From assembly GCF_000022145.1 (NCBI RefSeq), contig NC_011891.1, positions 930,001 to 994,000 of the forward strand: DNA of 64,000 bases, given 5' to 3'. The DNA comes from Anaeromyxobacter dehalogenans 2CP-1 (GTDB taxonomy: Bacteria > Myxococcota > Myxococcia > Myxococcales > Anaeromyxobacteraceae). Under the pieces are notes generated by a model that made no database searches, was not told the origin of the DNA, and worked only from the letters and a program-made list of their open reading frames with translations. This document shows positions 4,567-34,051 of the stretch, in pieces; the stretch's first letter is position 1; each line of letters starts with the position of its first letter. Made by a program: the position numbers and the translations under genes.

Positions 4567-5880
4567 ATGTCCATCCAGCTCAAGGTCCCGAACATCGGCG
4601 AATCCGTGCAGACGGCCACCATCGGCACGTGGCTCAAGAAGGAGGGCGAGCCGGTCCAGGCCGACGAGCCCGTGGTGGAGGTGGAGAGCGAGAAGGCCAC
4701 CGTGGCGGTCCCGGCGCCCGCCGCCGGCGTGCTGCGGAAGGTGCTCCGGCAGTCGGGCGAGACCGTCGCCATCGGCGAGGTGATCGCCGAGCTGGACGAG
4801 GGCGGCGCCGCCCAGGCCGCGGGGGCCTCGCCGTTCGGCTCCGGCCCGGTGCCCGGCGGCACCGTCCCCGCCGCCCGCGGCGACGGCGCCCCGGCGCCGG
4901 CCCCGGCTCCCGCCATCGCACCTGTCGCTTCCGCACCGGCCCGGGCCGCCGCCGCGGCGCCCGCGCCCGCCGCGCCGCCGGCGGCCCCGCCCGCGCCTGC
5001 CGCCGCCGCCGGGTTCCGAGCGTCGCCCTCGGCGCGCCGCAGGATGGCCGAGCTGGGCGTGACGGCCGGGCAGGTGGAGGCGATCGCCACCGGCGGCCAG
5101 ATCCGCAGGGACGACGTGGCCCGCGCGCTCGAGGCGCGCCCGGCCGCCCCCGCACCCGCGGCCCCGGCCGTGGCTGGCCCGCGCGAGCGCGTGGTCGCGA
5201 TGACCCCCCTGCGCCGCACCGTGGCGCGCCGGCTGGTCGAGGCGCAGCACACCGCGGCGCTGCTCACCACCTTCAACGAGGTGGACATGTCGCGCGTGCT
5301 CGCGCTCCGCGAGCAGCACGGCGAGGCGTTCCTGAAGCGCCACGGCGTGAAGCTCGGCTTCATGTCGTTCTTCGTGAAGGCGTCCATCGAGGCGCTGCGC
5401 GCCTACCCGGGCGTGAACGGCGAGATCCGCGGCGACAGCATCGTCTACAAGGACCACTACGACGTCGGCGTGGCGGTGGGCGGCGGCAAGGGCCTGGTGG
5501 TCCCGGTGATCCGCGACGCGGACGCGCTCTCCTTCGCCGAGGTCGAGGCGACCATCGGCGAGCTGGCGAAGAAGGCGAAGGAGAACCGCATCACCATGGA
5601 GGACCTCGCCGGCGGCACGTTCACCATCTCGAACGGCGGCATCTACGGTTCGATGCTCTCGACGCCCATCATCAACCCGCCGCAGTCGGGCATCCTCGGC
5701 CTGCACAAGATCCAGAAGCGCGCGGTGGTGGACGCCGACGACCAGGTGGTGGTCCGCCCGATGATGTACCTGGCGCTCTCGTACGATCACCGGCTGGTGG
5801 ACGGCCGCGAGGCGGTCTCCTTCCTCGTGAAGGTGAAGGAGTGCATCGAGGATCCGGAGCGGATGCTGCTGGAGGTCTGA
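4567..5880 (+). CDS. sucB: Dihydrolipoamide succinyltransferase (E2)
   Basis: E2 (437 residues) has three parts. There is one lipoyl domain (about 1-78) with the lipoylated lysine K43 in VESEKATV. A peripheral-subunit-binding domain that docks E3 spans about 150-193 ([15 protein letters not shown]). The C-terminal acyltransferase domain has the catalytic SYDHRLVDG motif, with H408 and D412. Two Ala/Pro-rich linkers, typical of swinging-arm E2 proteins, separate the domains. It follows sucA in the same operon. The VESEK lipoyl context and the partner E1o favour succinyltransferase over acetyltransferase. Confidence 0.95.
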
Positions 5881-13508: not shown

Positions 13509-15791
<2,283 letters not shown>

Positions 15792-15793
15792 CG

Positions 15794-16120
15794 CTACTCC
15801 GGCTCGATCGTCACGAGCAGCGGGTATTCCGCCTCGCGCGCCAGGTCCATCGTCTTCCGCGCCTTCGTCTCGGCGATCTCGTAGGGATAGATACCGGCGA
15901 CCCCCACCCCGTGCATGTGAACGTGGAGCATGATCCGGTGGGCGGACTCCGGGTCGTGGTTGAAGACCGTCATGAGGACGAAATCCACGAACTCCTGCGT
16001 CGTGTAATGGTCGTTGTGCAGCAGTACCCTGTACAGCGGCGGGCGCTTCGTCTCCCGCTCCGCGCGCGTCTTGGGGACGACGACCTCCGTATCGCCCCCG
16101 GGACGGGTTCGTTCAGCCAT
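15794..16120 (-). CDS. clpS: ATP-dependent Clp protease adaptor ClpS
   Basis: ClpS (108 residues) binds N-terminal destabilising residues and delivers those proteins to ClpA. The N-terminus is a flexible charged tail. The core has YRVLLHNDHYTTQEFVDFVL (the substrate pocket), HVHMHGVGVAGIYPYEIAETK and the final strand PLLVTIEPE, all diagnostic of ClpS. The length is typical of the family. It is the first gene of the clpS-clpA operon. An aat gene, which makes ClpS substrates, lies 2 kb away. Confidence 0.96.
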   Translation of the reverse strand: MAERTRPGGDTEVVVPKTRAERETKRPPLYRVLLHNDHYTTQEFVDFVLMTVFNHDPESAHRIMLHVHMHGVGVAGIYPYEIAETKARKTMDLAREAEYPLLVTIEPE

Positions 16121-16250
16121 GGCCGTCCATTCTAATGCGTCCGGCGGACCCGGCGCGCACCCGCAGGCCCCCTGCGCGCGGACCCGGGGCTCCCCCGCAG
16201 GACCGAGCCGGCTGCTCGCCTTCTTCCCCGGCCTCGCCTAGAGGTGGGGA

Positions 16251-18212
16251 ATGCACGCCTTCCTCCTCGCATGCCTCGTCGCGGCCGGCGCCGTGGCCGC
16301 CCCGCTCGACCTCGCCCCGGTCCCGGGCCGCCCCAACCTGCTCCAGCTCGGCGTCCCCGAGGTCCCCCCGGAGGTGTCCGCCCGCCTCGAGCAGTACGAG
16401 AACGCGCGCGCCGCGGTCCTCCGCGACGTGTCGCCGGACGGCCGGGCCATGCTGGTGACCACGCGGTTCGGCAGCACCGCCCAGCTCCACCTCGTGCTGG
16501 CGCCGCTGGGCATGCGCGAGCAGCTCACGTTCGGCGACGAGCCGGTGTCCGACGCCGCGTTCCTGCCGGGCCGGCCGGAGCGACTGCTCTACCTGCAGGA
16601 CAAGGGCGGCGGCGAGTTCTTCCAGCTCTACGGCCTGGACCGGCGCACCGGCCGCTCGGAGCTGCTCACCGACGGCCGGAGCCGCCACTCGGACCTGGTG
16701 GTCTCGCCGGACGGCCGGCGCCTCGCGTACTCGGGGACGGGCCGCAACGGCAAGGACGCGGACGTGTACGTGGCCGAGGCCGACCGGCCCGGCGCCGCGC
16801 GGCGCGTGGTGGAGGCGGAGGGGAGCTGGTCGGCGCTCGACTTCTCGCGCGACGGGCGCCGGCTGCTGGTCCGCCGGTACCGCGCCGCCTCCGACGCCGA
16901 CCTCGAGCTGGTGGACCTCGCGACCGGCGCGCGGACGCCGCTGCTCGCCGGCAAGGGCTCGGTGGGCGGGGCCGCGTTCTCCGCGGACGGGAGGTACGCG
17001 TACGCCATCACCGACCGCGGCGCCGGGCACGCGGCGCTGGTCCGCGTGGACCTCGCGCAGCCGGAGGCCGCGCCGCGTCCGGTCGCGCCCGGGGTGGCCT
17101 GGGACGTCGAGCAGGTGGTGGTGGCGCGCGACGGCACCGTGGCCTTCACCGCCGACGCGGACGGCGTCTCGCTGCTCCACGTGGTGGACCCGCGCACCGG
17201 CCGGCTGCGCGGCGTGGCGCTCCCGGGCCGGGGCGTCGCGACGCTCCGGTTCCCCTCCGGGCGGAGCGACCTCCTCGCGGTCGGGCTGGTGAGCGCCACC
17301 TCGCCCTGGGACGCCTGGACGGTCGAGCTCCGCGGCGGGAAGGCGGTGCGCTGGACGCGCTCGGAGGTGGGCGGGCTCGATCCGGCCGGGTTCGTGGAGC
17401 CGGAGCGGGTCCGCTACCCGAGCGCCGGCGGCGCGGAGGTGCCGGCGCTCCTGTACCGGCCGCGCGGCGGCGGACGGGTCCCGGTGGTCGTGAACTGGCA
17501 TGGCGGCCCCGAGAGCCAGCACCGGCCGGCGTTCAGCCCCATGGTGCAGTTCCTGGTGGCGGAGCTGGGCGTGGCGGTGCTCCAGCCGAACGTGCGCGGC
17601 TCCGCCGGCTACGGGAAGGACTGGCTCGCGCTCGACGACGGGGTGCGCCGCGAGGAGGCGCTGAAGGACGTCCCGGCCACGTTCCAGTTCATCGCCTCGA
17701 GGCCCGACCTCGACGCCTCGCGCGCGGTGGTGTGGGGCGGCTCCTACGGCGGCTATATGGTGCTCGCGACGCTCACGCTGTTCCCGGGCCTGGCGAGCGC
17801 CGGCGTGGACGTGGTGGGCATCTCCTCGCTGCCGAGCTTCCTCGAGAGCACCCAGGCGTACCGGCGCGACCTGCGCCGCGCCGAGTACGGCGACGAGCGC
17901 GTGCCGGAGGTGCGCGCGGTCCAGGAGCGGATCTCGCCGCTGGGCCGGGCCGGGGCCATCCGCGTGCCGCTGCTCGTCATCCAGGGCGCGAACGACCCGC
18001 GCGTCCCGCGCTCCGAGGCCGAGCAGATCGTCCGGGCGGTCCGCGCGAACGGGCAGGAGGTCTGGTACCTCGTCGCGCTCGACGAGGGGCACGGCTTCAA
18101 GAAGAAGGAGAACCGCGACCACGCCGACGCGGTCACGGTGGCGTTCCTGCAGCGGATGCTGGCCGGCGCGCCCCCCGCCGCGCAGCAGCGCGGCGCCGCC
18201 TCGGCACGCTGA
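16251..18212 (+). CDS. Secreted S9 family prolyl oligopeptidase-like peptidase
   Basis: This 653-residue protein has a cleavable signal peptide (MHAFLLACLVAAGAVAA), so it should act in the periplasm or outside. The N-terminal two thirds are a beta-propeller of WD/TolB-like blades (VSPDGRRLAYS, FSRDGRRLLV, FSADGRYAYA). The C-terminal alpha/beta hydrolase has the catalytic triad Ser498 (GGSYGG), Asp582 (GANDPRVP) and His614 (DEGHGF). This is the arrangement of S9 dipeptidyl peptidase IV/acylaminoacyl peptidase-like enzymes, which cleave short peptides. It is divergent from clpS and convergent with aat. Peptide specificity cannot be read from sequence. Confidence 0.9.
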   Translation: MHAFLLACLVAAGAVAAPLDLAPVPGRPNLLQLGVPEVPPEVSARLEQYENARAAVLRDVSPDGRAMLVTTRFGSTAQLHLVLAPLGMREQLTFGDEPVSDAAFLPGRPERLLYLQDKGGGEFFQLYGLDRRTGRSELLTDGRSRHSDLVVSPDGRRLAYSGTGRNGKDADVYVAEADRPGAARRVVEAEGSWSALDFSRDGRRLLVRRYRAASDADLELVDLATGARTPLLAGKGSVGGAAFSADGRYAYAITDRGAGHAALVRVDLAQPEAAPRPVAPGVAWDVEQVVVARDGTVAFTADADGVSLLHVVDPRTGRLRGVALPGRGVATLRFPSGRSDLLAVGLVSATSPWDAWTVELRGGKAVRWTRSEVGGLDPAGFVEPERVRYPSAGGAEVPALLYRPRGGGRVPVVVNWHGGPESQHRPAFSPMVQFLVAELGVAVLQPNVRGSAGYGKDWLALDDGVRREEALKDVPATFQFIASRPDLDASRAVVWGGSYGGYMVLATLTLFPGLASAGVDVVGISSLPSFLESTQAYRRDLRRAEYGDERVPEVRAVQERISPLGRAGAIRVPLLVIQGANDPRVPRSEAEQIVRAVRANGQEVWYLVALDEGHGFKKKENRDHADAVTVAFLQRMLAGAPPAAQQRGAASAR

Positions 18213-18233
18213 GGCCAACGTCCGGCGCGCCGA

Positions 18234-18935
18234 CTAGCTCGGCGGGCCCGCTCCGCCGAGCTGCCACCGCCCGCGCAGCGTGGGCTGCTCCAGCGCGCGG
18301 GCGAGCCGGGCCAGGAACTCGGCGCGCGGGATCTCGCGCGCGCCGAAGCGGACCAGGTGCTCGGTGCGGACCTGGCAGTCCACCAGCTCGACGCCCGCCG
18401 ACCGGAGCCACTCGACGGAGCGCACGAACGCGACCTTGGACGCGTCCGGCGCGTCGGCGAACATGGACTCGCCGAAGAACGCCGCGCCCAGCGAGACGCC
18501 GTACAGCCCGCCGGCGAGCGCGTCGCCCTCCCACGCCTCGAAGGAGTGGGCGACGCCCAGGCGGTGCAGGCGCACGTACGCGTCCACCATCTCGCCGGTG
18601 ATCCAGGTGCCCTGCTGGCCGGGGCGGTCCCGCTCGGCGCAGCGGCGGATGACCCGCTCGAACGCCTCGTCGGCGCTGACGCGGTAGGCGCCGCGCCGCA
18701 GCGTCCGCTGCAGCGAGCGGGGCACGTGCAGCGCGGCGGGGTCGAGCACCAGCCGCGGATCCGGCGACCACCAGAGGATGGGGCTCTCCGCGTCGAACCA
18801 GGGGAAGATCCCCTCGGCATAGGCGGTGAGGAGCCGCTCCGGCTCGAGGTCGCCGCCCACCGCCAGCAGCCCGTCGGGCTCGGCGAGCGCGGGGTCCGGG
18901 AACGCGGGCTCGCGGGGCAGGCGGAAGATGGGCAC
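18234..18935 (-). CDS. aat: Leucyl/phenylalanyl-tRNA-protein transferase
   Basis: Aat (233 residues) transfers Leu or Phe from tRNA to proteins with N-terminal Arg or Lys, creating ClpS-recognised N-degrons. The sequence has the family signatures FPDPALAEPDGLLAVGGDL, YAEGIFPWF, ILWWSPDPR, GTWITGEMVDAY, GGLYGVSLGAAFFGESMF and VDCQVRTEHL. The length is normal. It lies just beyond the S9 peptidase and close to clpS-clpA, so the N-degron machinery is clustered. The C-terminus converges on the peptidase stop with 21 bases between. Confidence 0.96.
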   Translation of the reverse strand: MPIFRLPREPAFPDPALAEPDGLLAVGGDLEPERLLTAYAEGIFPWFDAESPILWWSPDPRLVLDPAALHVPRSLQRTLRRGAYRVSADEAFERVIRRCAERDRPGQQGTWITGEMVDAYVRLHRLGVAHSFEAWEGDALAGGLYGVSLGAAFFGESMFADAPDASKVAFVRSVEWLRSAGVELVDCQVRTEHLVRFGAREIPRAEFLARLARALEQPTLRGRWQLGGAGPPS

Positions 18936-19923: not shown

Positions 19924-20802
19924 TCAGGAGTGCAGCTCGACGAACTTCTTGATCGCCTGGCGCACGGACGCCTGCACCTTCGCCGGCACCTCGGGCATCG
20001 GCGCGGCCTTGCAGAGCGCCAGGGTGCGCTGGAGGGAGTCGCAGCGCGACTGGCACGCCGGGCAGCCTGCCAGGTGCTTCTCCATGTCGGCGCACACGTT
20101 CGCGCTGATCTCGCCCTCGAGGTGGCGGGAGAAGAGCTGGACGATGTCCGGGCAGGTGACGTCGGGACCGGACGGCGCGGCCGGTCGCGCCGCGGGCGCG
20201 GCCTCAGGCGCGGCCGCGGCCGGGGCCTCCGGGATCCCGAGGAGCGGCACCAGCGCCTCGCGCACGGCCACGCGGGCCCGGTGGAGCCGGCTCTTCACCG
20301 CCTCCACGCTCAGGCCCATCACCTCGGCGACCTCGGGGGCGGAGAGCCCCTCGACGTCCCGCAGCACCAGCACCTCGCGGTACATGGGGTCGAGGCGCCC
20401 GATGGCGGTCTCCAGGGCCTGCTCGATCTGGCGCCCGGCGAGCGACTCGTCCGGCGTGCGCCCGGGGTCCGCGACCTGCCGCGCCTCGGCCCCCGGCTCG
20501 CGCTGGTCGAGGGAGGTCTCCTCGGCCGGCGCGAACTTCGAGCGGCGGCGCTTCTTGATGCAGAAGCTCCGGGCGATCGTGTACATCCACGTCGAGACCG
20601 ACGACGCGCCGCGGAAGTCCTTCACCGTGCGTGCGGCCGCGAGCAGCGTCTCCTGGAGGATGTCCTTCGCGTCCTCCGGATCCCGGCACATCTTCAGGCC
20701 GAAGCGGTAGACGCGCCGCTGGTGGCGCGTGAGCAGCTCGTCGAGCGCACGGCGGTCGCCGGTCCGGGCGCGGTCGATCAGGGTGGCGTCGCTGGTTTCC
20801 AT
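19924..20802 (-). CDS. ECF sigma factor with fused C-terminal zinc-finger (anti-sigma-like) domain
   Basis: This 292-residue protein has sigma region 2 at about 5-75 (CRDPEDAKDILQETLLAA, FRGASSVSTWMYTIA) and region 4 at about 115-170 (LDPMYREVLVLRDVEGLSAPEVAEVMGLS). A Pro/Ala-rich linker (about 175-205) leads to a zf-HC2-type zinc-binding motif, HLAGCPACQSRC, usually found in separate anti-sigma proteins. The ATG at 20802 was chosen over the longer frame to 20880 because it is preceded by GGGAG at good spacing and by the usual start of region 2. No anti-sigma gene adjoins it. It is divergent from the respiratory operon and may regulate it, but that is inference. Confidence 0.88.
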   Translation of the reverse strand: METSDATLIDRARTGDRRALDELLTRHQRRVYRFGLKMCRDPEDAKDILQETLLAAARTVKDFRGASSVSTWMYTIARSFCIKKRRRSKFAPAEETSLDQREPGAEARQVADPGRTPDESLAGRQIEQALETAIGRLDPMYREVLVLRDVEGLSAPEVAEVMGLSVEAVKSRLHRARVAVREALVPLLGIPEAPAAAAPEAAPAARPAAPSGPDVTCPDIVQLFSRHLEGEISANVCADMEKHLAGCPACQSRCDSLQRTLALCKAAPMPEVPAKVQASVRQAIKKFVELHS

Positions 20803-21084
20803 GGTGTCTCCCGTCCTTCCTAGTCCACCCGCGATCCCCTCACAAGCGCGCGGTCGTCGCGGGTCCGGTCCGGCCTCCATTCACTGAGCGTGATGCGCAC
20901 CCGGCGTGCTCGACCGGCGGGGGCGCCGGGCACCGAGGGCGGAGCGGGTTTAGGGGGCAGGCAAGCGACTCGCCCCTTCAGAGACCTTCCGCCAGTGGGT
21001 GGCGCCGAACAGTTTACGCCCCGGCGCGGGCCCCGGAACGTGGTGCAGCAGGACACGTCTGCCTCGGGGTGCGCGACCCACTCG

Positions 21085-21735
21085 ATGAGCGCACTGTTCA
21101 CGCCGAGATCCAACGCTCTCTTCCGCCTCGTCCTCGTCCTCCTGATCGCCGGCGCCGGCGGGACGGTCGCCGCGTTCATGGTGTACTGGCGCGTGCCGTA
21201 CGGCACCGGCCAGCAGGAACAGGTGGCGCAGCCGGTCCAGTTCGACCACCGGCACCACGTCCAGGACGACCTGATCGACTGCCGGTACTGCCACAGCACG
21301 GTGGACCGCGCGGCGAGCGCGGGCATCCCCTCCACCGAGCTCTGCCTGAACTGCCACGCGCAGGTCTGGAACAAGAGCCCGCTGCTCGACGTGGTCCGCG
21401 CGAGCTGGTTCGCGAACGAGCCCATCCGCTGGATGCGCGTCCACAAGCTGCCGGACTTCGTCTACTTCAACCACTCCATCCACGTGAACAAGGGCGTCGG
21501 CTGCGTCGAGTGCCACGGCCGCGTGGACCAGATGGCCGCCATCGAGCAGGTGCAGCCGCTGACGATGGGCTGGTGCCTCGACTGCCACCGCAACCCGTAT
21601 CCCCGCCTCCGCCCGCCGGAGGAGGTCACCAACATGGCCTGGAAGCCGGACGGTGACCCCGCCGCGATCGGGAGGGAGATCGCGAAGAAGTACGACGTCA
21701 AACCGCGCACGAGCTGCTACACATGCCATCGCTAG
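21085..21735 (+). CDS. actA: Alternative Complex III subunit A, pentaheme cytochrome c
   Basis: ActA (216 residues) is the multiheme electron-transfer subunit of Alternative Complex III, a quinol:electron-acceptor oxidoreductase that replaces the bc1 complex. An N-terminal anchor helix (about 11-34) precedes five CxxCH heme sites: CRYCH, CLNCH, CVECH, CLDCH and CYTCH. The ATG at 21085 starts the family-typical N-terminus; upstream in-frame codons give a low-complexity extension. It is the first gene of a 12-gene operon. The 282 bases before it hold the divergent promoter with the sigma factor gene, where I see no convincing consensus. Confidence 0.92.
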   Translation: MSALFTPRSNALFRLVLVLLIAGAGGTVAAFMVYWRVPYGTGQQEQVAQPVQFDHRHHVQDDLIDCRYCHSTVDRAASAGIPSTELCLNCHAQVWNKSPLLDVVRASWFANEPIRWMRVHKLPDFVYFNHSIHVNKGVGCVECHGRVDQMAAIEQVQPLTMGWCLDCHRNPYPRLRPPEEVTNMAWKPDGDPAAIGREIAKKYDVKPRTSCYTCHR

Positions 21736-24680
21736 GGCTTCCCATCTACGGACAGAAGCAGGGTGCGGGTCTCGACGCGCGCCGCTGGCGCAGCGTCGAG
21801 GAGGCCGCCGAGGCCAGGGAGGTGCCGCCGGGCGAGTTCCCGGACGACGCCGCCGCGGTCCCGGAGGGCTTCACGCGCCGCGGGTTCCTCCAGGTGCTCG
21901 GCGCCTCGGTGGCGCTGGCGGGCCTGGAGGCCTGCAAGCCGCCGCGCGAGAACGTGGTCTCGTACGTACGGCCGCCGGCCGGCGTGACCCCGAGCCTCCC
22001 GAGCGCCTACGCCACCGTCGCGTCGCGCGGCGGGTACGCGGTGGGCGTGGTGGTCACCAGCCACGAGGGCCGGCCCACCAAGATCGAGGGCAACCGCGAG
22101 CACCCGTCGAGCCGCGGCGGGAGCGACGCCATGCTGCAGGCGTCGATCCTCGACCTCTACGACCCGCGCCGGCTGAAGGGCTTCACCCGCGCCGGCCGCC
22201 CGCTCGGGTTCGCCACGCTGCTGCGCGAGGTCTCGGCGCTGGCCCGGTCGCACGCGCAGGACGGCGGGGCGCGGCTGCGCTTCCTGGTCGAGCCGACCAG
22301 CTCGCCGGCGGTCGCCGACCTCCGCCGGCGGATCCTGGAGCGCTTCCCGCGCGCCCGCTTCGACGCGTGGGCGCCGGTGGGCGCCGACGCGGGGCGCGCC
22401 GGCGCGGCGATCGCGTTCGGCAAGCCGCTCGACGCCGCGGCCTCCCTCGCCGACGCGGACGTGATCCTCTCGCTCGAGTCGGACTTCCTCGCGCTCGAGG
22501 GCGACAGCCTGCGCCTGGCGCGCGAGTTCGGCGCGCGGCGCACCGCCGAGCGGATGAACCGGCTCTACGTGGCCGAGTCGGCCTACACCGTGACCGGCGG
22601 CGCCGCCGACCACCGCTTCCGGATGCGCTCCGCCGACGTGCTCGGGTTCGGGCGCGCGGTCGCCGCGGAGCTCGCCGCGAAGCACGGCCTCGCCCAGCTC
22701 GCGCCGCTCGGCGCGCCGGCCGGGGGCGAGCGCGCGAAGGCGGCCGCGGCGGTCGCGGCCGACCTGGCCCGGGCGCGGGGCCGCTCGGCGGTGCTCGCCG
22801 GCGACCGGCAGCCCGCGGCGGTGCACGCGCTCGCGGCGGCGCTGAACGGCGCGCTCGGCAACGCCGGCAAGACGGTCGCGTACCGCCCCACCGCGCTGCT
22901 CGATCCGGCCGCCGGGCCGGACCGGCTCCGCGCGCTCGCCGGCGAGCTCGAGGCGGGCAAGGTGGACGCGCTGGTGGTGACGGCCTGGAACCCGGCGCAC
23001 ACCGCGCCGGCCGACGTGCCGCTCCGCAAGCTGCTCCCGAAGGCGAAGGACACGATCGCGCTCGCGCTCCGCGAGGACGACACGGTCCGGCTCGCGACCT
23101 GGAAGATCGCGGCCACCCACCCGCTGGAGGCCTGGGGCGACCTGCGCGCCGCGGACGGCACCGCCTCCATCCAGCAGCCGCTCATCGCGCCGCTGCACGA
23201 GTCGCTGAGCGAGCTCGAGCTGCTCGCGGCGTTCCTCGACGAGGGGGACCACGGCACCTGGCGCATCGTGCGCGAGGGCTGGCGGCGCCGCGCCGGCGAG
23301 GCCGGGTTCGACGGCCGCTGGGACGGCTGGCTCGCCGCGGGCGTGGTCGCGGGCAGCGCGGTGCCGCCCGAGCCCGCGCAGGCGGACCTGGCCCGGGTCG
23401 CGGAGGCGGTGCGCGCGGTGGCCGCGCCGGGCGCCTCGCTCGAGCTCGGCTTCGCCGCCGACTACAAGGTGCTCGACGGGCGCTTCCTCGAGAACGCCTG
23501 GCTGCAGGAGTACCCGCACCCGATCACCAAGCTGACCTGGGACAACGCGGCGCAGCTCTCGGCCGCGACCGCGAAGCAGCTCGGCGTCGAGTCGGGTGAC
23601 CTCGTCGAGCTGTCGTGGCGGGGCCGCACGCTCACCGCGCCGGCTCTGGTGGTCCCGGGCCACGCCGACGGCTCGGTGCTGCTCACGCTCGGCTACGGGC
23701 AGGCGCTGTCCGGGCCGGTGGGGAAGGGCGTGGGCCACGACGCCTACGCGCTCCGCACCTCCGACGCGCCCTGGTTCGGCGCCGGCGTGGAGGTCCGCAA
23801 GACCGGGAAGCGGCACCCGCTCGCGACGACGCAGGAGCACTTCTCGATGCAGGGCCGGGCCATCGCGCTCGCGCTCGACGCGCCGGAGCTCGCCCACGCG
23901 AAGCACGAGCTGGACGAGCACCGCGGCCCGCAGGCCACCATCCACGAGCCGGTGGACTACTCGAAGAACGAGTACCGCTGGGGCATGGCCATCGACCTCT
24001 CGCGCTGCATCGGCTGCGGCGCGTGCACGGTCGCCTGCCAGGCCGAGAACAACATCCCGGTGGTCGGCAAGGAGCAGGTGCTCCGCAGCCGCGAGATGCA
24101 CTGGCTGCGGGTGGACCGCTACTTCGAGGGCCCGGTCGAGGATCCCGCCTCCGTCTCCCAGCCGCTCGCGTGCGTGCACTGCGAGGCGGCGCCCTGCGAG
24201 TACGTGTGCCCGGTGAACGCCACCGTGCACTCGGAGGAGGGCCTGAACGAGATGGTCTACAACCGGTGCGTCGGGACCCGGTACTGCTCCAACAACTGCC
24301 CGTACAAGGTGCGCCGCTTCAACTGGCTCGACTGGCACGGGACGCTCGAGCCGACCGAGAAGATGGTGCACAACCCCGACGTCACGGTCCGCGCGCGCGG
24401 CGTGATGGAGAAGTGCACCTACTGCACGCAGCGCATCGAGCACGCGCGCATCGACGCGCGCTCGAGCGGCCGGAAGATCGGCGGCGACGAGGTGGTCTCC
24501 GCCTGCCAGCAGGCCTGCCCCACCGAGGCGATCGTCTTCGGCAACCTGAACGACCCCGGCTCGGCCGTGTCGAAGCGGCACGCGGACGCCCGCCGCTACG
24601 ACCTGCTGCACGAGCTCGGCACCCGGCCGCGCACCGCCTACCTCGTCAAGCTCCGCAACCCGAACCCCGACCTCGCATGA
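21723..24680 (+). CDS. actB: Alternative Complex III subunit B, molybdopterin-like plus Fe-S protein
   Basis: ActB (985 residues) carries a twin-arginine motif [11 protein letters not shown] (R52, R53) for Tat export, preceded by the about 50-residue N-terminal extension typical of the subunit. Residues about 70-720 resemble molybdopterin oxidoreductases, but family members lack the cofactor. The C-terminal quarter is a ferredoxin-type domain with [35 protein letters not shown] and CTYC...CQQAC motifs for Fe-S clusters. The B1 and B2 parts are fused, as in Rhodothermus and Flavobacterium. It overlaps actA by 13 bases and actC by 4. Confidence 0.93.
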
Positions 24681-26113
24681 CCACCGCGACCAAGACGATC
24701 GAGCGCGTCGATCCGCTCGAGACCTCGCCCGTGCTGGTCGGCCGCCCCGACGACCGGGCGCTGACCGAGAGCCTGCTCGAGCCGGTGCTGGGGCCCACGA
24801 AGAAGGGCTGGCTGGTGATGCTCGTCCTGTTCGGCGGCGGGATGGCCTTCTGGCTCCTGTCGCTCTACATGACCCTGTTCGTCGGCATCGGGGTGTGGGG
24901 CAACAACATCCCGGTCGCCTGGGCCTACGACATCACCAACTTCGTCTGGTGGATCGGCATCGGCCACGCCGGCACGCTGATCAGCGCGATCCTGCTGCTG
25001 TTCCAGCAGAAGTGGCGCACCTCCATCAACCGCTTCGCGGAGGCGATGACGCTGTTCGCGGTGGCGATGGCCGGCGCGTACCCGGTCATCCACCTCGGGC
25101 GCCCCTGGCTGTTCTGGTGGCTCATCCCGTACCCCGCCACCACCCAGATCTGGCCGAACTTCAAGAGCGCGCTCCCCTGGGACGTGTTCGCGATCTCGAC
25201 CTACGCGACCGTCTCCTTCCTGTTCTGGTACCTCGGGCTCATCCCCGACCTCGCCACCCTGCGCGACGCGGCGAAGACCCGGGCGCAGCGCGTCGTCTAC
25301 GGGATCATGTCCTTCGGCTGGCGGGGCTCGGCGCGGCACTGGCAGCACTGGCGCATCGGCTACCTGCTCATGGCCGGCCTGTCCACGCCGCTGGTGGTGT
25401 CGGTGCACACCATCGTGTCGTTCGACTTCGCCATCTCGCAGCTGCCGGGCTGGCACACCACCATCTTCCCGCCGTACTTCGTGGCCGGCGCCATCTTCAG
25501 CGGCTTCGCGATGGTGATGACGCTGATGATCCCGGCGCGGAAGGTGTTCAAGTTCGAGCACGTCGTCACCGCGCGCCACCTCGACAACATGGCGAAGGTG
25601 ATCCTCGCGACCGGCCTGATGGTCACCTACGGCTACGTGATGGAGTGGTTCATCGCGTGGTACTCGGGCAACGACGCCGAGTGGTTCGCCTTCTACAACC
25701 GCGTCGTCGGCGACTACAAGCTGGTGTACGCGATGCAGATCTTCTGCAACGTGGTGGCGCCCCAGGTGTTCTGGGTGCCGGCGCTGCGGCGGAACGTGAT
25801 GGTGCTGTTCCTCGTCTCCGTGCTGGTGAACTTCGGCATGTGGGCGGAGCGCTTCGTCATCATCGCGGTGACGCTCACCCGCGACTTCGTCCCCGGCTCC
25901 TGGGCGAACTACACGCCGACGTGGGTCGACTGGGGCCTGCTGTTCGGGTCGATCTCCACCTTCTCCGTCCTGTTCCTCCTGTTCCTGCGCTTCCTGCCGG
26001 CCATCCCCATCTCCGAGGTGAAGGAGCTCCGCCGCGAGCTGGAGCACCAGGATCACCACGCCGCGCAGGGCGGGCAGGCCGTGGCGCAGGGCGCGCACGC
26101 GGAGCGGGCATGA
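24677..26113 (+). CDS. actC: Alternative Complex III subunit C, NrfD-type membrane protein
   Basis: ActC (478 residues) is one of the two NrfD-like quinol-interacting membrane subunits of Alternative Complex III. About ten hydrophobic segments are visible from [20 protein letters not shown] to [14 protein letters not shown]. The family-typical [12 protein letters not shown] and [15 protein letters not shown] segments are present. A His-rich cytoplasmic tail ends the protein. The start ATG overlaps the actB stop in an ATGA arrangement. It probably forms the quinol site with ActF, as in known cryo-EM structures of the complex. Confidence 0.92.
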
Positions 26114-26637
26114 AGACGTACGTCCTGGGAGAGTTCGGCGCGGAGGCCGCGCTCCTCGACGCGGCGCGCACGCTGCGCGCGCGCGGCGGGGCCACCCTCG
26201 ACCTCCACTCACCGTACCCGCTGCACGGCGCCGAGGAGGCGCTGGGCCTTCGCAGGTCCACCGTGCCGCTCGTGGCGCTGGTGGCCGGGATCACCGGCGC
26301 CGTCTCCGGGTACCTGCTGCAGTGGTACACGGTCGGCTACGACTGGCCGCTCAACGTGGGCAACCGGCCGCCGCACAGCGCGCCGGCGTTCATCCCGGTC
26401 ACGTTCGAGCTCGGCGTGCTGTTCTCCGCGCTGAGCATCTTCGTCGGCCTGCTCGCCGTCTACTTCGGCTTCCCGCGCGTCCACCACCCGGTGTTCGAGG
26501 TGGAGGCGTTCCGCTCCGCCAGCATCGACGGCCTGTGGCTCTCGGCCGAGGTGGAGGCCGGCGACGCCGACGCGGTCGCGGCGGAGCTGCGCCGGCTCGG
26601 CGCGCGCCTGGTCTCGGTCGTCCCGGAGGGGAAGTGA
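26110..26637 (+). CDS. actD: Alternative Complex III subunit D
   Basis: ActD (175 residues, DUF3341 type) is a membrane subunit with two transmembrane helices (about 56-78 and 104-125) linked by the [19 protein letters not shown] loop, which is conserved in the family. A short cytoplasmic N-terminal domain ([19 protein letters not shown]) and a C-terminal domain (about 130-175) flank them. The start overlaps actC in ATGA. It has no cofactor motif and is structural in known complexes. Confidence 0.9.
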
Positions 26638-26638
26638 G

Positions 26639-27211
26639 ATGACCCGCCGCCTCGCCCTCTTCCTGCCGCTCCTCGCGCTGACCGCCTGCCCGCGGCTCGA
26701 CCCGATGCAGCGCCAGCAGAAGTACAAGGCCTACCAGTCCAGCGAGTACTACGCGAACGGCCTCGCCATGCGGCACCCGCCCGCCGGCACGGTGCCGTAC
26801 GGCCCCCGGCTCGACCCGGCGGTCGCGACCGGCCGCGGTCCCGACGGCCGCCCGGTGCAGCTCATGCCGGTGCCGGTGGACGCGAAGCTGCTCGCGCGCG
26901 GGCGCCAGCGGTTCGACGTGAGCTGCGCGGTGTGCCACGGCGTGCTCGGCGACGGCGAGAGCCAGGTCGCGATGAACATGTCGCTGCGCCGGCCGCCCTC
27001 GCTGCACCTCTACCGCGATCGCCCGGACGGCTACATCTACCAGGTGATCACCGAGGGCTTCGGGCTCATGCCCTCGTACGCCGCCGAGATCCCGGTGCAG
27101 GACCGCTGGGCGATCGTGGCGTACGTGCGCGCCCTCCAGCTCAGCCAGAACGCATCGCTCGACCAGGTGCCCCCCGACGCCCGCGAGCAGCTCCAGAAGG
27201 AGGGGCGATGA
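26639..27211 (+). CDS. actE: Alternative Complex III subunit E, monoheme cytochrome c lipoprotein
   Basis: ActE (190 residues) has a signal peptide with an LTAC lipobox (Cys17), so it is lipid-anchored on the outer face of the inner membrane. One heme c site, CAVCHG, is present at about residue 98; a distal Met ligand is likely in GLMPSYA. It accepts electrons from ActA/B and hands them to the caa3 oxidase. Only one base separates it from the actD stop, so translation is coupled. Confidence 0.91.
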   Translation: MTRRLALFLPLLALTACPRLDPMQRQQKYKAYQSSEYYANGLAMRHPPAGTVPYGPRLDPAVATGRGPDGRPVQLMPVPVDAKLLARGRQRFDVSCAVCHGVLGDGESQVAMNMSLRRPPSLHLYRDRPDGYIYQVITEGFGLMPSYAAEIPVQDRWAIVAYVRALQLSQNASLDQVPPDAREQLQKEGR

Positions 27212-28392
27212 CCCTCACCCCGTACCTGGGCGGCCGGCGCCTCATGACGATCGCCGCCGCCGCCGGCGCCGCGGGCCTCGCCGTCACCGCGCTCGGCGCG
27301 GCGGTCGGCGATCCGCGCCGCGCGCTCTACGCCTACCTCGTCGCGTTCGTCTACTGGCTGGGCCTGGCGCTCGGCGCGCTCATCCTGCTCGGCGCGCTGC
27401 ACGCGTCGAACGCGCGCTGGCCGGTGGTCCTGCGCCGCTTCCTCGAGCACCTCCCGGCGGTGATCCCGCTGTTCGTGGTGCTGTTCATCCCCATCCTGCT
27501 CGGCCGCGGCCACCTGTTCCCGTGGGTGGACCCGCACGGCCTGCAGGGCGAGGTCCTCCACGCGGTCGAGCACAAGAAGCCCTACCTCAACGTGCCGTTC
27601 TTCGTGATCCGGGCCGCGATCTACTTCGCCTGCTGGATCGGGGTCGCGCACCTGCTCCGGGCCTGGTCGCTCCGCCAGGACGAGGTCGGCGGGCACGACC
27701 TGACCCGGCGCCAGCGCGCGCTCGGGGCGGGCTCGCTGCCGTTCGTGGCGCTCACGCTCACGTTCGCGGCGTTCGACTGGATGATGTCGCTCGACCCGCG
27801 CTTCTTCTCGACCATCTTCGGCGTGTACTGGTTCGCCGGCAGCTTCGTCGGCGCGTTCGCGGTGGTCATCATCGCCGCCAACGCCACGCGGCTCGATCCG
27901 AACCAGTTCGGCGCGCACATGAACACCGAGCACTTCCACTCGCTCGGCAAGTTCCTGCTCGCGTTCACCGCGTTCTGGGCCTACGTCGCGTTCTCGCAGT
28001 TCATGCTGATCTGGATCGCGAACGTGCCGGAGGAGGTGCCCTGGTACATCCTCCGCATCGAGGGCGGGTGGAAGGCGGTGGGCGTCTTCCTCGCGCTGTT
28101 CCACTTCCTGGTGCCGTTCTTCCTGCTGATGAACCGCGCCATCACCCGCAACCCGGGCCGGCTGGCGAAGGTCGCGGTCTGGATCCTGTTCGTCCACTGG
28201 ATCGACCTCTACTGGCTGCTGATGCCCCACCTCGACCCGGGCGGCCCGCGGCCGTCGCTGTGGGACCTCTCCGCCTTCGTGGGCGTGGGCGGCGTCACCG
28301 TGGCGTTCGCGCTGGCCCGCATGCGCGGCACGGTGGCGGTCCCGGTCCGCGATCCCTACCTCGAGGACTCGCTGAGGTACCTGCCGCAATGA
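27208..28392 (+). CDS. actF: Alternative Complex III subunit F, NrfD-type membrane protein
   Basis: ActF (394 residues) is the second NrfD-like integral membrane subunit, paired with ActC. About ten hydrophobic segments run from AAAAGAAGLAVTALGAAV to SAFVGVGGVTVAFALA. Conserved family blocks FDWMMSLDPRFFSTIFGVYWF, HFHSLGKFLLAFTAFWAYVAFSQF and HWIDLYWL are present. The start overlaps actE in ATGA. It may contribute the proton path of the complex. Confidence 0.92.
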   Translation: MTLTPYLGGRRLMTIAAAAGAAGLAVTALGAAVGDPRRALYAYLVAFVYWLGLALGALILLGALHASNARWPVVLRRFLEHLPAVIPLFVVLFIPILLGRGHLFPWVDPHGLQGEVLHAVEHKKPYLNVPFFVIRAAIYFACWIGVAHLLRAWSLRQDEVGGHDLTRRQRALGAGSLPFVALTLTFAAFDWMMSLDPRFFSTIFGVYWFAGSFVGAFAVVIIAANATRLDPNQFGAHMNTEHFHSLGKFLLAFTAFWAYVAFSQFMLIWIANVPEEVPWYILRIEGGWKAVGVFLALFHFLVPFFLLMNRAITRNPGRLAKVAVWILFVHWIDLYWLLMPHLDPGGPRPSLWDLSAFVGVGGVTVAFALARMRGTVAVPVRDPYLEDSLRYLPQ

Positions 28393-28826
28393 GCGACCAC
28401 GTCGAACACGCCCACGGGGTCCGGTCCGAGGAGGACCGGATCGACACCGGCAAGATCATCGCGGTCGGCGTGGCCGCGCTGGTGCTCTTCTTCATCGGCT
28501 CCTACGCCGCCATCGCCTACCTGCGGGACGTCCGCGCCTCGCGCGAGGCGCCGCCCATCCCGGCGGAGATCGGCCAGAACAAGATCGGCATGGTGGAGCA
28601 GCAGCTGTTCGAGCTCTCCGTGCGCGGCGAGCGCGATCGCGCCGCGCGCCGCGAGCGGCTCGCGTCGTACGGCTGGGTGGACCGGGGCGCCGGCGTGGTG
28701 CACCTGCCCATCGACCGCGCCATGGACCTGGTGGTCCAGGGGATCCGCCCCATGCCCGCGCCGCCGGTGGAGCCGGTGCCGTCGCAGGCGCCCGACCTCG
28801 GGCCGGGCCCGGGAGGCCAGCCGTGA
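28389..28826 (+). CDS. Small single-helix membrane protein in the act operon
   Basis: This 145-residue protein has no named family that I recognise. One transmembrane helix (about 23-45, IIAVGVAALVLFFIGSYAAIAYL) follows a charged N-terminus, and the rest is predicted periplasmic. The C-terminal part contains YGWVDRGAGVVHLPIDRAMDLVV and a Pro-rich tail. The motif W-x-D-x5-V-x-I-P-I-x-R-A-M resembles that of small proteins linked to respiratory oxidases. It overlaps actF and sco by 4 bases each, which argues for an accessory or assembly role in the oxidase chain. Confidence 0.7.
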   Translation: MSDHVEHAHGVRSEEDRIDTGKIIAVGVAALVLFFIGSYAAIAYLRDVRASREAPPIPAEIGQNKIGMVEQQLFELSVRGERDRAARRERLASYGWVDRGAGVVHLPIDRAMDLVVQGIRPMPAPPVEPVPSQAPDLGPGPGGQP

Positions 28827-29698
28827 CGCGCGCGATGCTCCGGCGCGCCGGGGCCGGCCTGGCGCTCGCGGCCGCCGCGGCGCTCGCCGCGCCTGCGCCG
28901 GCGGCCGCCCAGTTCTGGCGCCAGCGCGAGGGGGGCGCGGGCCCGTCGCCGGACGTGCCGCCGGTCGCCCTCGAGGACGTCCGCGTCGAGGAGAAGCTCG
29001 GCGCGGCGGTCCCGCTCGACGTGTCCTTCACCGACTGGAAGGGCCAGCCCTTCTCGCTGCGCCAGGCGTTCGACGGCAAGAAGCCGGTGGTGGTCGCGCT
29101 CGTCTACTACGACTGCCCCATGCTGTGCGGGCTCATCCTCTCGGGCATGGGCAAGGCCATGCGCGAGAACGGGCTCGAGCTGGGCCGGGACTACCAGGCG
29201 GTCACCATCTCCTTCGATCCGGAGGAGGGGCCGGCGCTCGCCGCCGAGCGGCGCCGCGGCTACCTGCAGTCGATGGGCCGCTCCGACGCGGGGACCGACT
29301 GGCCGTTCCTGGTCGGCACGGCGGAGGCGTCGCGCCAGATCTCCGACGCGGTCGGCTTCTACTACAAGAAGGACCCGGCCTCCGGCGAGTGGGCCCACCA
29401 GGCGGCGATCTTCGTCATCACGCCCGACGGGAAGGTCTCTCGCTACCTGTACGGCATCGACTACCCGCCCAAGGACTTCCGGCTGTCGGTCGTCGAGGCC
29501 GCCAGCGGCAAGGTCGGCACCAGCTTCGATCGACTCCTCCTCACCTGCTACCGGTACGACCCCGCCTCGCGGAAGTACGAGCCGTACGCGTTCGGCATCG
29601 TGCGCGCCGGCGCGGCCGTGGTGCTGGTGGCCCTCACCGGCCTGATCGCCGCGCTGGTCTGGCGCGAGCGGCGGGCCAAGGCGAGGCAGACGGCATGA
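28823..29698 (+). CDS. sco: SCO1/SenC-type copper chaperone
   Basis: This 291-residue thioredoxin-fold protein helps to build the CuA centre of cytochrome oxidase. A signal peptide (about 1-29) is followed by the copper motif CPMLC (about residue 97-101) and the third ligand in HQAAIFVITPDG. A C-terminal transmembrane helix (AGAAVVLVALTGLIAALVW) is present, which is unusual because most Sco proteins are anchored only at the N-terminus. The GTG start at 28823 overlaps the previous stop in GTGA. It lies directly before coxB, which carries CuA. Confidence 0.88.
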   Translation: MTRAMLRRAGAGLALAAAAALAAPAPAAAQFWRQREGGAGPSPDVPPVALEDVRVEEKLGAAVPLDVSFTDWKGQPFSLRQAFDGKKPVVVALVYYDCPMLCGLILSGMGKAMRENGLELGRDYQAVTISFDPEEGPALAAERRRGYLQSMGRSDAGTDWPFLVGTAEASRQISDAVGFYYKKDPASGEWAHQAAIFVITPDGKVSRYLYGIDYPPKDFRLSVVEAASGKVGTSFDRLLLTCYRYDPASRKYEPYAFGIVRAGAAVVLVALTGLIAALVWRERRAKARQTA

Positions 29699-30724
29699 AC
29701 GACCTCCTGCGAAGAATGCTGTTCCTCCCGGACCAGGCGAGCGACTACGCGCGCCAGGTGGACGGGCTCCACTACTTCGTCATCATCACCACCATGCTCG
29801 CGGCGGCGGGCGTGTTCGCCACCGCGATCTACTTCTTCGTGCGGTACCGGCGCCGGGCGGACACCGACGTCACCCCGCGCGTCGAGCCGAAGGCCATCCA
29901 CGAGGTCATCTTCGTGGGGCTGCCGCTGGCGTTCTTCCTGGTGTGGTTCGCGATCGGCTTCCCGCAGTTCGCGAAGCTGCAGACGCCGCCCAAGGACGCG
30001 ATGGACGTCTACGTCCAGGGCAAGAAGTGGATGTGGAAGTTCGCGTACCCGGGCGGCCCGAACTCGGTGGACGTGCTGCGCGTCCCCGCCGGCCGGCCGG
30101 TGCGGCTGCTCATCACCTCGCGCGACGTGATCCACTCGTTCTACGTGCCGGCGCTCCGGGTGAAGCAGGACGCGCTCCCGGGCCGCTACACGCAGACGTG
30201 GTTCAACGCCGACCGGCCGGGCCGCTACGAGATCTTCTGCGCCGAGTACTGCGGCCTCGCGCACTCCGGGATGATCGGCGAGCTGGTGGTGATGCCGGCG
30301 GAGGAGTTCGATCAGTGGCTCGCCACGCAGGGGCGCGGGGTGGCGGGGTCGCAGGACGGCACGCCCGTCCCCGGCGAGCCGGTGCGCCCGGCCTCCAACG
30401 TCATCGAGGAGGGGCGGCGGCTGGCCAGCGAGCAGGGCTGCCTGAAGTGCCACTCGGTGGACGGCACGCGGCACATCGGGCCGACCTGGGTGGACCTCTA
30501 CGAGCGGAACGAGAAGCTCCAGAGCGGGAAGAGCGTGCAGGCCGACGAGGGGTATCTCACCAAGTCGATGATGGATCCCGCCGCGGACATCGTGGCGGGC
30601 TACCAGAACGTGATGCCGACCTACCAGGGCAAGCTCGCACCGCCCGAGGCGGCGGCCATCGTCGAGTTCATCAAGTCCTTGAAGACCCCGGCGGTCCAGA
30701 GCGGTCCGTCGGAGGGCCCGGTCT

Positions 30725-30747
<23 letters not shown>
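29695..30747 (+). CDS. coxB: Cytochrome c oxidase subunit II with fused cytochrome c domain (caa3)
   Basis: Subunit II (350 residues) has two N-terminal transmembrane helices, then the cupredoxin CuA domain with HSFYVPALR and the CAEYCGLAHSGM ligand set. A C-terminal cytochrome c domain follows, with CLKCHSVDG (about residue 250) and Met ligand in VMPTYQG. The fusion defines a caa3-type oxidase and replaces soluble cytochrome c. The ATG at 29695 overlaps the sco stop in ATGA. Its end overlaps coxA by 23 bases. Confidence 0.95.
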
Positions 30748-32378
<1,631 letters not shown>

Positions 32379-32389
<11 letters not shown>

Positions 32390-33008
32390 CCCGCTCGCAC
32401 ACCATTTCGAGAACATCGAGAAGCAGTCGCACGCCGAGCGGCTCGGCATGTGGCTGTTCCTCGCCTCCGAGGTGCTGCTGTTCACCGCGCTGTTCGCGGC
32501 CTACGCGGTGTACCGGTACCTGTACTCGGACGCGTTCGCCGAGGCGAGCCGCGCCATCGAGACCTGGCTCGGCCTGGTCAACACCATCATCCTGGTGACC
32601 AGCTCGTTCACGGTCGCGCTCGGGCTGAACGAGGCGGTGAAGGGGAACGGCAAGAAGACCGGGCTGTGGTTCGCCGTGTCGGTCGCCTTCGCCGTCGCGT
32701 TCCTCGCGCTCAAGGCGGTCGAGTACAGCCACCACTTCCACGAGGGGCAGCTCCCGGGCCGCTACTACTCGTTCCAGGAGCTGCAGGCGCCGGGCGCGTC
32801 GCTGTTCTTCGCGCTCTACTTCCTCATCACCGGCCTGCACGGCGTCCACGTGATCGTCGGCATGACGATCCTGGCGGTGGTGGGCGTGAAGGCGGCGCGC
32901 GGGAAGTACACGGCGGCGTACCACACGCCGGTCGAGCTGGCCGGCCTGTACTGGCACCTCGTCGACCTCATCTGGATCTTCGTCTTCCCCCTCATCTACC
33001 TCGTGTAG
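32379..33008 (+). CDS. coxC: Cytochrome c oxidase subunit III
   Basis: Subunit III (209 residues) has five hydrophobic helices, as in bacterial subunits that lack the first two helices of mitochondrial COX3. The blocks RLGMWLFLASEVLLF, YFLITGLHGVHVIVG and YWHLVDLIWIFVFPLIYL are diagnostic. It stabilises the oxygen-reducing core. The start lies inside the end of coxA, an 11-base overlap. Confidence 0.94.
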
Positions 33009-33480: not shown

Positions 33481-33664
33481 TCCCGGGGCCCGCCCGGCCG
33501 CCGGCGCGCCCGGCCCGCGCCCGGCGTCCGCCGCGCCCCCGGTCCGCATCCCGGGCGCTCCGCCCCGCGCCGCTCGCGATCCGGCCCGCGCGTTCGCATC
33601 TCTGATGCGGCGCCCCGCGGCGCGCCGGCCGCGGGGCCGCGCGACGGGGCGCGGGAGCCGCACC

Positions 33665-34051
33665 TTGCGAGCCATCGGTCACCGCACCTGGGCCATCCCG
33701 GAGGGCTACCTGCCGCCCCGTGGGCGGCCGGAGGACCGCGCGCTGGAGAGCCACGAGGCCGCCTGCGTGCTGAACGCCGGCGACGAGGACGCGCACCTCG
33801 AGCTCCGCGTGTTCTTCGCCGACCGCGAGCCGGCCGGACCGTACCGGCTCACCGTGGGCGCCCGCCGCACGCTGCACCTGCGGCTCGACGACCTGCGCGA
33901 CCCGGAGCCCATCCCGCGCGGCACCGACTACGCGACGGTGATCCGGTCCGACGTGCCGGTGGTGGTGCAGCACACCCGGCTCGACGCCCGCCGCGCGGAG
34001 AGCGCGCTCATGACGACGCTCGCGTGGGCGGCGGCGGAGGAGGGGGCATGA
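33665..34051 (+). CDS. Sensory rhodopsin transducer (ASRT) family protein
   Basis: This 128-residue protein (TTG start at 33665; an in-frame ATG at 33605 adds an Arg-rich extension unlike the family) contains IGHRTWAIPEGYLP, SHEAACVLN, FADREPAGPYRLTV, RRTLHLRLDD and VVVQHTRLD, all characteristic of the PF07100 family. The prototype binds Anabaena sensory rhodopsin, but homologues without rhodopsin are common and have a jellyroll-like fold. No rhodopsin gene is in this window. The stop overlaps the ThDP enzyme start in ATGA, so a metabolic partner role is more likely. Function is not established. Confidence 0.82.
   Translation: MRAIGHRTWAIPEGYLPPRGRPEDRALESHEAACVLNAGDEDAHLELRVFFADREPAGPYRLTVGARRTLHLRLDDLRDPEPIPRGTDYATVIRSDVPVVVQHTRLDARRAESALMTTLAWAAAEEGA

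Follow-up and report, generated by a model that had tools for sequence, protein, structure and literature searches.

An ECF sigma factor with a fused zinc-finger anti-sigma-like domain in Anaeromyxobacter and its predicted thiol and sulfur promoters

A gene of Anaeromyxobacter dehalogenans 2CP-1 encodes an ECF sigma factor that continues, in the same reading frame, into a zinc-finger anti-sigma-like domain. The locus raises two questions, namely whether this extra domain is an anti-sigma factor carried on the sigma chain, and which genes such a factor would serve, those beside it or others. The window is the whole stretch of DNA that was analysed, 64,000 nucleotides long; features of the locus and of the predicted regulon are collected in Table 1.

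An earlier note had described the open reading frame as a fusion, and its coordinates proved right: sigma2, sigma4 and zf-HC2 all score above their Pfam cut-offs in one frame, with 35.3 bits in hmmscan for zf-HC2 (residues 217–251) against a cut-off of 22.2. The CxxC motif of the note is present and is part of a larger, complete set, Cys-x25-His-x3-Cys-x2-Cys (C217, H243, C247, C250); further cysteines of the extension are C237, C254 and C264. The 292-aa sequence shows no visible transmembrane segment. The whole genome contains eight zf-HC2 matches, each with a match to sigma region 4 nearby, and the window's match alone is in frame with its own sigma factor. As the note had also stated, no separate anti-sigma gene is adjacent; the only zf-HC2 domain in the 64-kb window is the sigma factor's own.

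Table 1. Features of the sigma factor locus (window coordinates) and genes behind the predicted promoter motif GAAYC-N15/16-GGCTCYMA in the same genome
Feature	Position	Strand	Basis or remark
ECF sigma factor with C-terminal ZAS (zf-HC2) domain, 292 aa	19924..20802	-	ORF and Pfam
Sigma2 domain, residues 23–89 (Sigma70_r2)	20536..20736	-	Pfam; sigma-part cysteines C39 and C81 invariant (79/79 loci)
Sigma4 domain, residues 128–178 (Sigma70_r4_2)	20269..20421	-	Pfam
Pro/Ala-rich linker, length differing among relatives	20155..20247	-	Translation, alignment
ZAS domain, residues 217–251: C217, C237, H243, C247, C250	20050..20154	-	Pfam, alignment
C-terminal part of anti-sigma-like domain, C254 and C264	19927..20049	-	Collinear with separate 79-aa ZAS proteins
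Possible housekeeping-type promoter of sigma gene, TTGTGA-N17-TAGGAA	20817..20845	-	By eye, unscored
Intergenic region between sigma gene and actA (divergent); no GAAYC-N15/16-GGCTCYMA	20803..21084	.	Motif scan
ECF-like GGAAC-N16-CGTC site upstream of actA	21035..21059	+	Only in window, L039 and L040
Alternative complex III genes actA–F, small gene, sco (neighbour)	21085..29698	+	Putative target at most
cox2, cox1, cox3 of terminal oxidase (neighbour)	29716..33008	+	
Rhodanese gene (L152)	6 nt from motif to ATG		Read directly from ORFs
Methyltransferase gene	6 nt behind motif		Own genome
TlpA-like gene	38 nt behind motif		Own genome
DUF6132 gene	17 nt behind motif		Own genome
HesB-like gene (L156)	G000:C1:3975207 onward; 7 nt behind motif		In-frame TGA; read directly from ORFs
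29-aa ORF (L157)	11 nt behind motif		Own genome
Motif copy L158			Not followed by a gene in its direction; own genome
Thioredoxin reductase (TrxB) gene	41 nt behind motif		Above NCBIfam cut-off
OsmC gene	51 nt behind motif		Own genome

The extension was compared with known anti-sigma proteins by several routes. With the whole protein as the phmmer query, RsiW matches residues 216–285 (E 3.8e-5); a profile of the extension made from 13 sequences finds RsiW (1e-7) and then, weakly, 3hug_B (0.047) and RsrA (0.097). Six separate ZAS proteins of 77–86 aa, encoded behind other ECF genes in related genomes, align with the extension in hhalign at 97.8% over 74 collinear columns. AlphaFold models were poor (pTM 0.34 and 0.47), too weak to show docking. 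The model of the ZAS part alone had a pLDDT of 68.7 and no significant Foldseek match; Foldseek and VIA-align gave it weak helical matches only, with no ZAS chain among them. By its homology to soluble ZAS anti-sigma proteins (zf-HC2, RsiW), the C-terminal domain is well supported as a fused anti-sigma domain, and the anti-sigma-like nature claimed for it in the earlier note is upheld. Sigma factors paired with a 79-aa ZAS protein in Myxococcaceae were considered as the separate counterpart of the fusion and set aside, being a different ECF with the same type of inhibitor.

All 60 of the nearest genomes have a match to the protein at E < 1e-20, the distant ones often to the sigma part only. 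Of 120 class genomes, each at least 90% complete, 92 gave a match in a profile search, and many of these matches run unbroken over the full length. Among the relatives are Anaeromyxobacter sp. PSR-1 (97%) and A. soli (73%), further myxobacterial and deltaproteobacterial members and one Vicinamibacteria bin. Conservation was followed in 79 loci (the window, L039–L076, L110 and L113–L151); two fetched candidates, L077 and L078, lack the extension and were dropped. C217, C237, H243, C247, C250 and C264 are retained in 78 of the 79 loci and C254 in 75; HxxxCxxC occurs in 78, and the full pattern C-x(23,28)-HxxxCxxC in 77, the window included. The set persists down to about 36% identity. Its retention in 78/79 loci is not due to chance. 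Equivalents of C237 and C254 are absent from all six separate ZAS proteins aligned. The Pro/Ala linker noticed earlier is present in the window protein, long and Pro/Ala-rich as in Anaeromyxobacter generally; its variable length and near-absence in Myxococcaceae rule it out as a defining feature.

The genes around the fused sigma genes point to a function. Loci with the sigma gene divergent from the act operon are called act loci here, and neighbourhood counts cover 76 of the 79 loci, those that were indexed (L072, L076 and L138 left out). A gene of a sulfur or thiol family is found near the sigma gene in 38 of 62 non-act loci, against none of 20 random windows taken from genomes carrying the sigma gene; the other 24 non-act loci have none nearby. 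The families counted are the Blh-related metallo-beta-lactamase fold, YeeE/YedE-like, rhodanese, TauE, DsrE, SoxB-like, OsmC and DUF302; the names SQR-like, SoxB-like and Blh-like stand for matches below NCBIfam cut-offs, and one YeeE-like family scored below the Pfam cut-off. L162 looked DUF302-like at first but matches no Pfam family and was excluded from that class.

Upstream of these sulfur and thiol genes lies a promoter-like element, GAAYC-N15/16-GGCTCYMA. The form GAA[TC]C-N12..17-GGCTC has 143 matches in the 79 loci, 120 of them at a spacing of 15 or 16; the bipartite motif was picked by eye on the same loci in which it was then counted, and the loci are related, so that the counts are not independent. 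At spacing 15/16, the 120 matches fall in 1,030 kb from 66 non-act fused loci, and random windows totalling 336 kb contain 2; there are 0 in 199 kb across 12 fetched act loci, and none in the window between positions 5001 and 45000. Counts independent of the motif choice come from the window's own genome and the act-linked genomes only.

In the window's own genome, GAAYC-N15/16-GGCTCYMA has nine matches against two for a backwards control. The copies are scattered, with none at actA and none in the window; the short rhodanese and HesB-like genes (L152 and L156) behind two of them were missed by a codon-based gene finder. Seven family genomes (G000, G003, G005, G007, G009, G010 and G021) provide the strongest test, because act-linked genomes had no part in the motif choice: they contain 49 matches, 45 of which scored as intergenic. 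The genes behind them are rhodanese in six genomes, OsmC in four, DUF6132 or a homologue in four, TrxB in three (G000, G003 and G005), an FmdB-type zinc ribbon in three and a YHS/heavy-metal ATPase in three, with thioredoxins and methyltransferases besides; Pfam was run on a single representative per kind, and the rest were placed by blastp or by reading. Over the 17 genomes of family f1, the motif has 128 matches and the control 10.

Further observations bear on which factor reads the element. The residues of sigma regions 2 and 4 are nearly alike in act-linked and other members of the same family. Among 28 genomes without a match to the sigma factor, eight of them assigned by subtraction from two lists, the motif still has 64 matches against 24 for the control, so another sigma factor may use the element too. 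In ten Myxococcaceae loci (L122, L124, L127, L132, L133, L136, L139, L141, L145 and L067), the YeeE/SoxB/DsrE cluster also contains an ECF gene of another kind, which makes assignment of the motif to the fused sigma factor uncertain there; in most cases the gene after this additional ECF gene encodes c20, which matches no Pfam family and may be an anti-sigma factor in the membrane. From location and shared descent, we infer that the fused sigma factor reads GAAYC-N15/16-GGCTCYMA promoters.

Two kinds of gene behind the motif have features of their own. The HesB-like gene (L156, L165, L169 and L178) starts 7–8 nt behind the motif, and its reading frame continues past an in-frame TGA whose position is conserved (VGHG/VGRG-U-GG); the protein therefore looks like a selenoprotein. 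A short ORF of about 29 aa ending in PRMGVxT lies 5–11 nt behind the motif in two genomes (L157 and L198); its product may be a small membrane protein.

Most likely, the window protein is a sigma-R/RsrA-like switch made of one protein and responding to thiol stress or sulfane sulfur. In this model, the ZAS domain would be a former separate, soluble anti-sigma factor that now sits on the sigma chain. It would fold back on sigma2/sigma4 and keep the protein inactive as long as the Cys/His site is zinc-loaded and reduced; a thiol-reactive stress (disulfide stress, sulfane sulfur or a thiophilic metal) would modify the cysteines and open the clamp, and the freed sigma factor would transcribe, from GAAYC-N15/16-GGCTCYMA promoters, the genes for rhodanese, thioredoxin reductase, thioredoxin-like proteins, OsmC, the HesB-like protein and efflux. 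Oxidation-driven loss of zinc is described for soluble ZAS proteins in excerpts of PMC8999054. To the computed domain make-up, ZAS homology, conserved Cys/His residues and motif with its downstream genes, the model adds intramolecular inhibition, zinc binding and the identity of the signal, all three of which we infer. Redox or zinc switching, as the earlier note had proposed, would be in keeping with a domain rich in cysteines and with a predicted regulon of thiol and sulfur genes. Taken as a whole, a one-component ECF sigma factor with a built-in ZAS clamp, working as a thiol-stress switch on thiol and sulfur promoters, is a reasonably probable account.

A narrower version, put forward tentatively, is that reactive sulfur species act on the ZAS domain directly as the signal: the clamp would be freed when C237/C254 or the zinc ligands become persulfidated, and the sigma factor would be devoted to sulfane-sulfur homeostasis through a conserved myxobacterial regulon. 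That regulon would then comprise rhodanese, a Blh-like MBL dioxygenase, YeeE/YedE, TauE, OsmC, the thioredoxin system and the HesB-like selenoprotein. PerR provides a precedent, its zinc site being opened by sulfane sulfur according to excerpts of PMC9952342.

It is rather doubtful that the protein is instead a sensor of thiophilic metals or metalloids (Cu, Cd, Hg or As) in the manner of CorE, with the metal displacing zinc from the Cys-rich domain. The motif does stand before YHS/heavy-metal-binding P-type ATPase genes (L175, and L182 and L191 in relatives) and before RND/outer-membrane efflux and methyltransferase genes, and CorE of Myxococcus has a metal-sensing extension (excerpts of PMC8999054). 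Most targets, however, are rhodanese, thioredoxin, OsmC and persulfide-type genes and not metal genes, and the extension is ZAS by profile.

The genes next to the sigma gene suggest another answer, that the factor senses the redox state of the respiratory chain and regulates the divergent act/caa3 operon. The divergent position itself, reported in the earlier note, was verified (actA–F, sco and the cox genes; cox2 is named by position, the scanned stretch having no Pfam match). Of the first 40 loci searched, 12 have it (L039–L048, L050 and L051, with L045 and L046 showing it only in part), which makes 13 family loci with the window, or 13 of all 79 fused loci; actA lies within seven genes of the sigma gene in 14 of the 76 indexed loci, the additional one being L116, from another family. 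In the other 65 of 79, act genes are absent within seven genes or the locus could not be indexed. The GAAYC...GGCTC motif is missing from actA: at spacing 15/16 there are 0 copies in the 13 act loci, where the best intergenic matches have 3–4 mismatches. The GGAAC-N16-CGTC site at actA was tried as a conserved act promoter and rejected, as it is found in only 3 of the 13 act loci and is missing from the remaining 10. A tie to respiration is possible in some lineages given two arrangements: in L116 (G089) the sigma gene lies two genes upstream of the act operon in the same direction, and in L210 (G090) an extension-less paralogue stands beside a motif-bearing cytochrome c/COX2/COX1 operon. In a tree, act-linked loci need two label changes, which would allow a single gain together with a loss of the act linkage. 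Control of the adjacent operon is thus unlikely and, in this clade, unsupported; the act/caa3 genes look like bystanders of the sigma gene. The observation in the earlier note therefore stands, as does the part of its interpretation concerning a fused anti-sigma domain, and the part concerning act/caa3 control lacks support in this clade. The case cautions against reading a regulator's targets off its neighbouring operon.

Several further elements were seen around the divergent pair. TTG...TA pairs similar to the possible promoter of the sigma gene occur, by eye, before the sigma gene in several act-linked relatives. A block GAGACCTTCCG...TTTACGCCCC upstream of actA (window 20980–21035), common to several act-linked relatives, could be the true promoter of the act operon or a site for a regulator. 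Directly behind the oxidase genes is a gene of the Anabaena sensory rhodopsin transducer family (33605–34051).

Release of the sigma factor by cleavage or degradation of the extension, perhaps by ClpAP/ClpS, is also improbable. It would agree with Table 2 of PMC8999054, in the excerpts of which ECF270* is placed under proteolysis, and with the aat, clpS and clpA genes that follow the sigma gene in the window as well as in most act loci; yet the sequence has no visible transmembrane segment, and the clp neighbours are missing at non-act loci. Downstream of the sigma gene come first a Pro/Ser-rich protein, for which Pfam gave no match, and then aat. The clpA, clpS and aat genes are grouped just downstream of the sigma gene as an N-end-rule set (window 13509–18935), with a prolyl-oligopeptidase-like gene in between, an arrangement that most act-linked relatives retain.

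Some relatives have no anti-sigma part. In L201–L207, the sigma factor ends after region 4, its YeeE and symporter neighbours are those of L115/L121, and no ZAS gene follows; here, in the synteny of the fused genes, the anti-sigma part has apparently been lost. L208 and L209 encode an extension-less sigma factor beside a rhodanese gene, and L074 has lost the ZAS part, retaining the last helix. The built-in inhibitor can therefore be lost, and L201–L207 are natural comparisons for what it contributes. That the ZAS domain is a vestige or a mere stabiliser, with control through the amount of the factor, would suit these variants but is very unlikely given a Cys/His set retained in 78/79 loci down to about 36% identity.

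Among described ECF groups, the closest is ECF270. In excerpts of the review PMC8999054, ECF270 and ECF271 are described as regulated by ZAS proteins, some ECF270 members have a regulatory extension, and WP_011419852.1 of A. dehalogenans is listed under ECF270 with such an extension and with proteolysis proposed; these excerpts give neither targets nor mechanism for ECF270. Sigma2, sigma4 and a ZAS domain, which characterise ECF270, are all present in the window protein, whose regulation by the last would be expected. Set against ECF270 by the review's description only, the protein is very likely a member of that group and an orthologue of WP_011419852.1; identity with it is likely because the window protein is the only in-frame zf-HC2 fusion in the genome. 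ECF48, ECF52 and ECF53 (e.g., SCO4117) likewise have a zinc-finger anti-sigma-like domain fused behind sigma4, but they carry transmembrane helices (excerpts of PMC8999054), none of which is visible in the window protein. CorE (ECF238) of Myxococcus xanthus, in the same excerpts, is another myxobacterial ECF with a C-terminal regulatory extension, which responds to metal; the window extension is ZAS by Pfam and is likened to CorE by description alone.

Sigma-R/RsrA of Streptomyces, sigma-H/RshA and RpoE/ChrR also employ a soluble ZAS domain, and the domain of the window protein matches RsiW and, weakly, RsrA. In these pairs the anti-sigma factor is a separate protein, whereas here it is on the same chain; no separate anti-sigma gene of the sigma-R/RsrA type is present in the window, the domain being in frame with the sigma factor. 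Sigma-R has thioredoxin-reductase-type targets and a promoter type of its own. The predicted thioredoxin-reductase-type targets of the window sigma factor would resemble those of sigma-R, and its predicted promoter, GAAYC...GGCTC, would differ. In the open-access literature searched, with subscription papers outside it, no paper describes an ECF270 regulon or persulfide sensing by an ECF/ZAS pair. The fused sigma/ZAS architecture is already in print, and the regulon is newly predicted: the shared motif gives an orphan regulator a concrete, testable regulon, and the protein offers a compact model for a zinc anti-sigma domain acting in cis, next to the two-protein systems of the sigma-R/RsrA kind.
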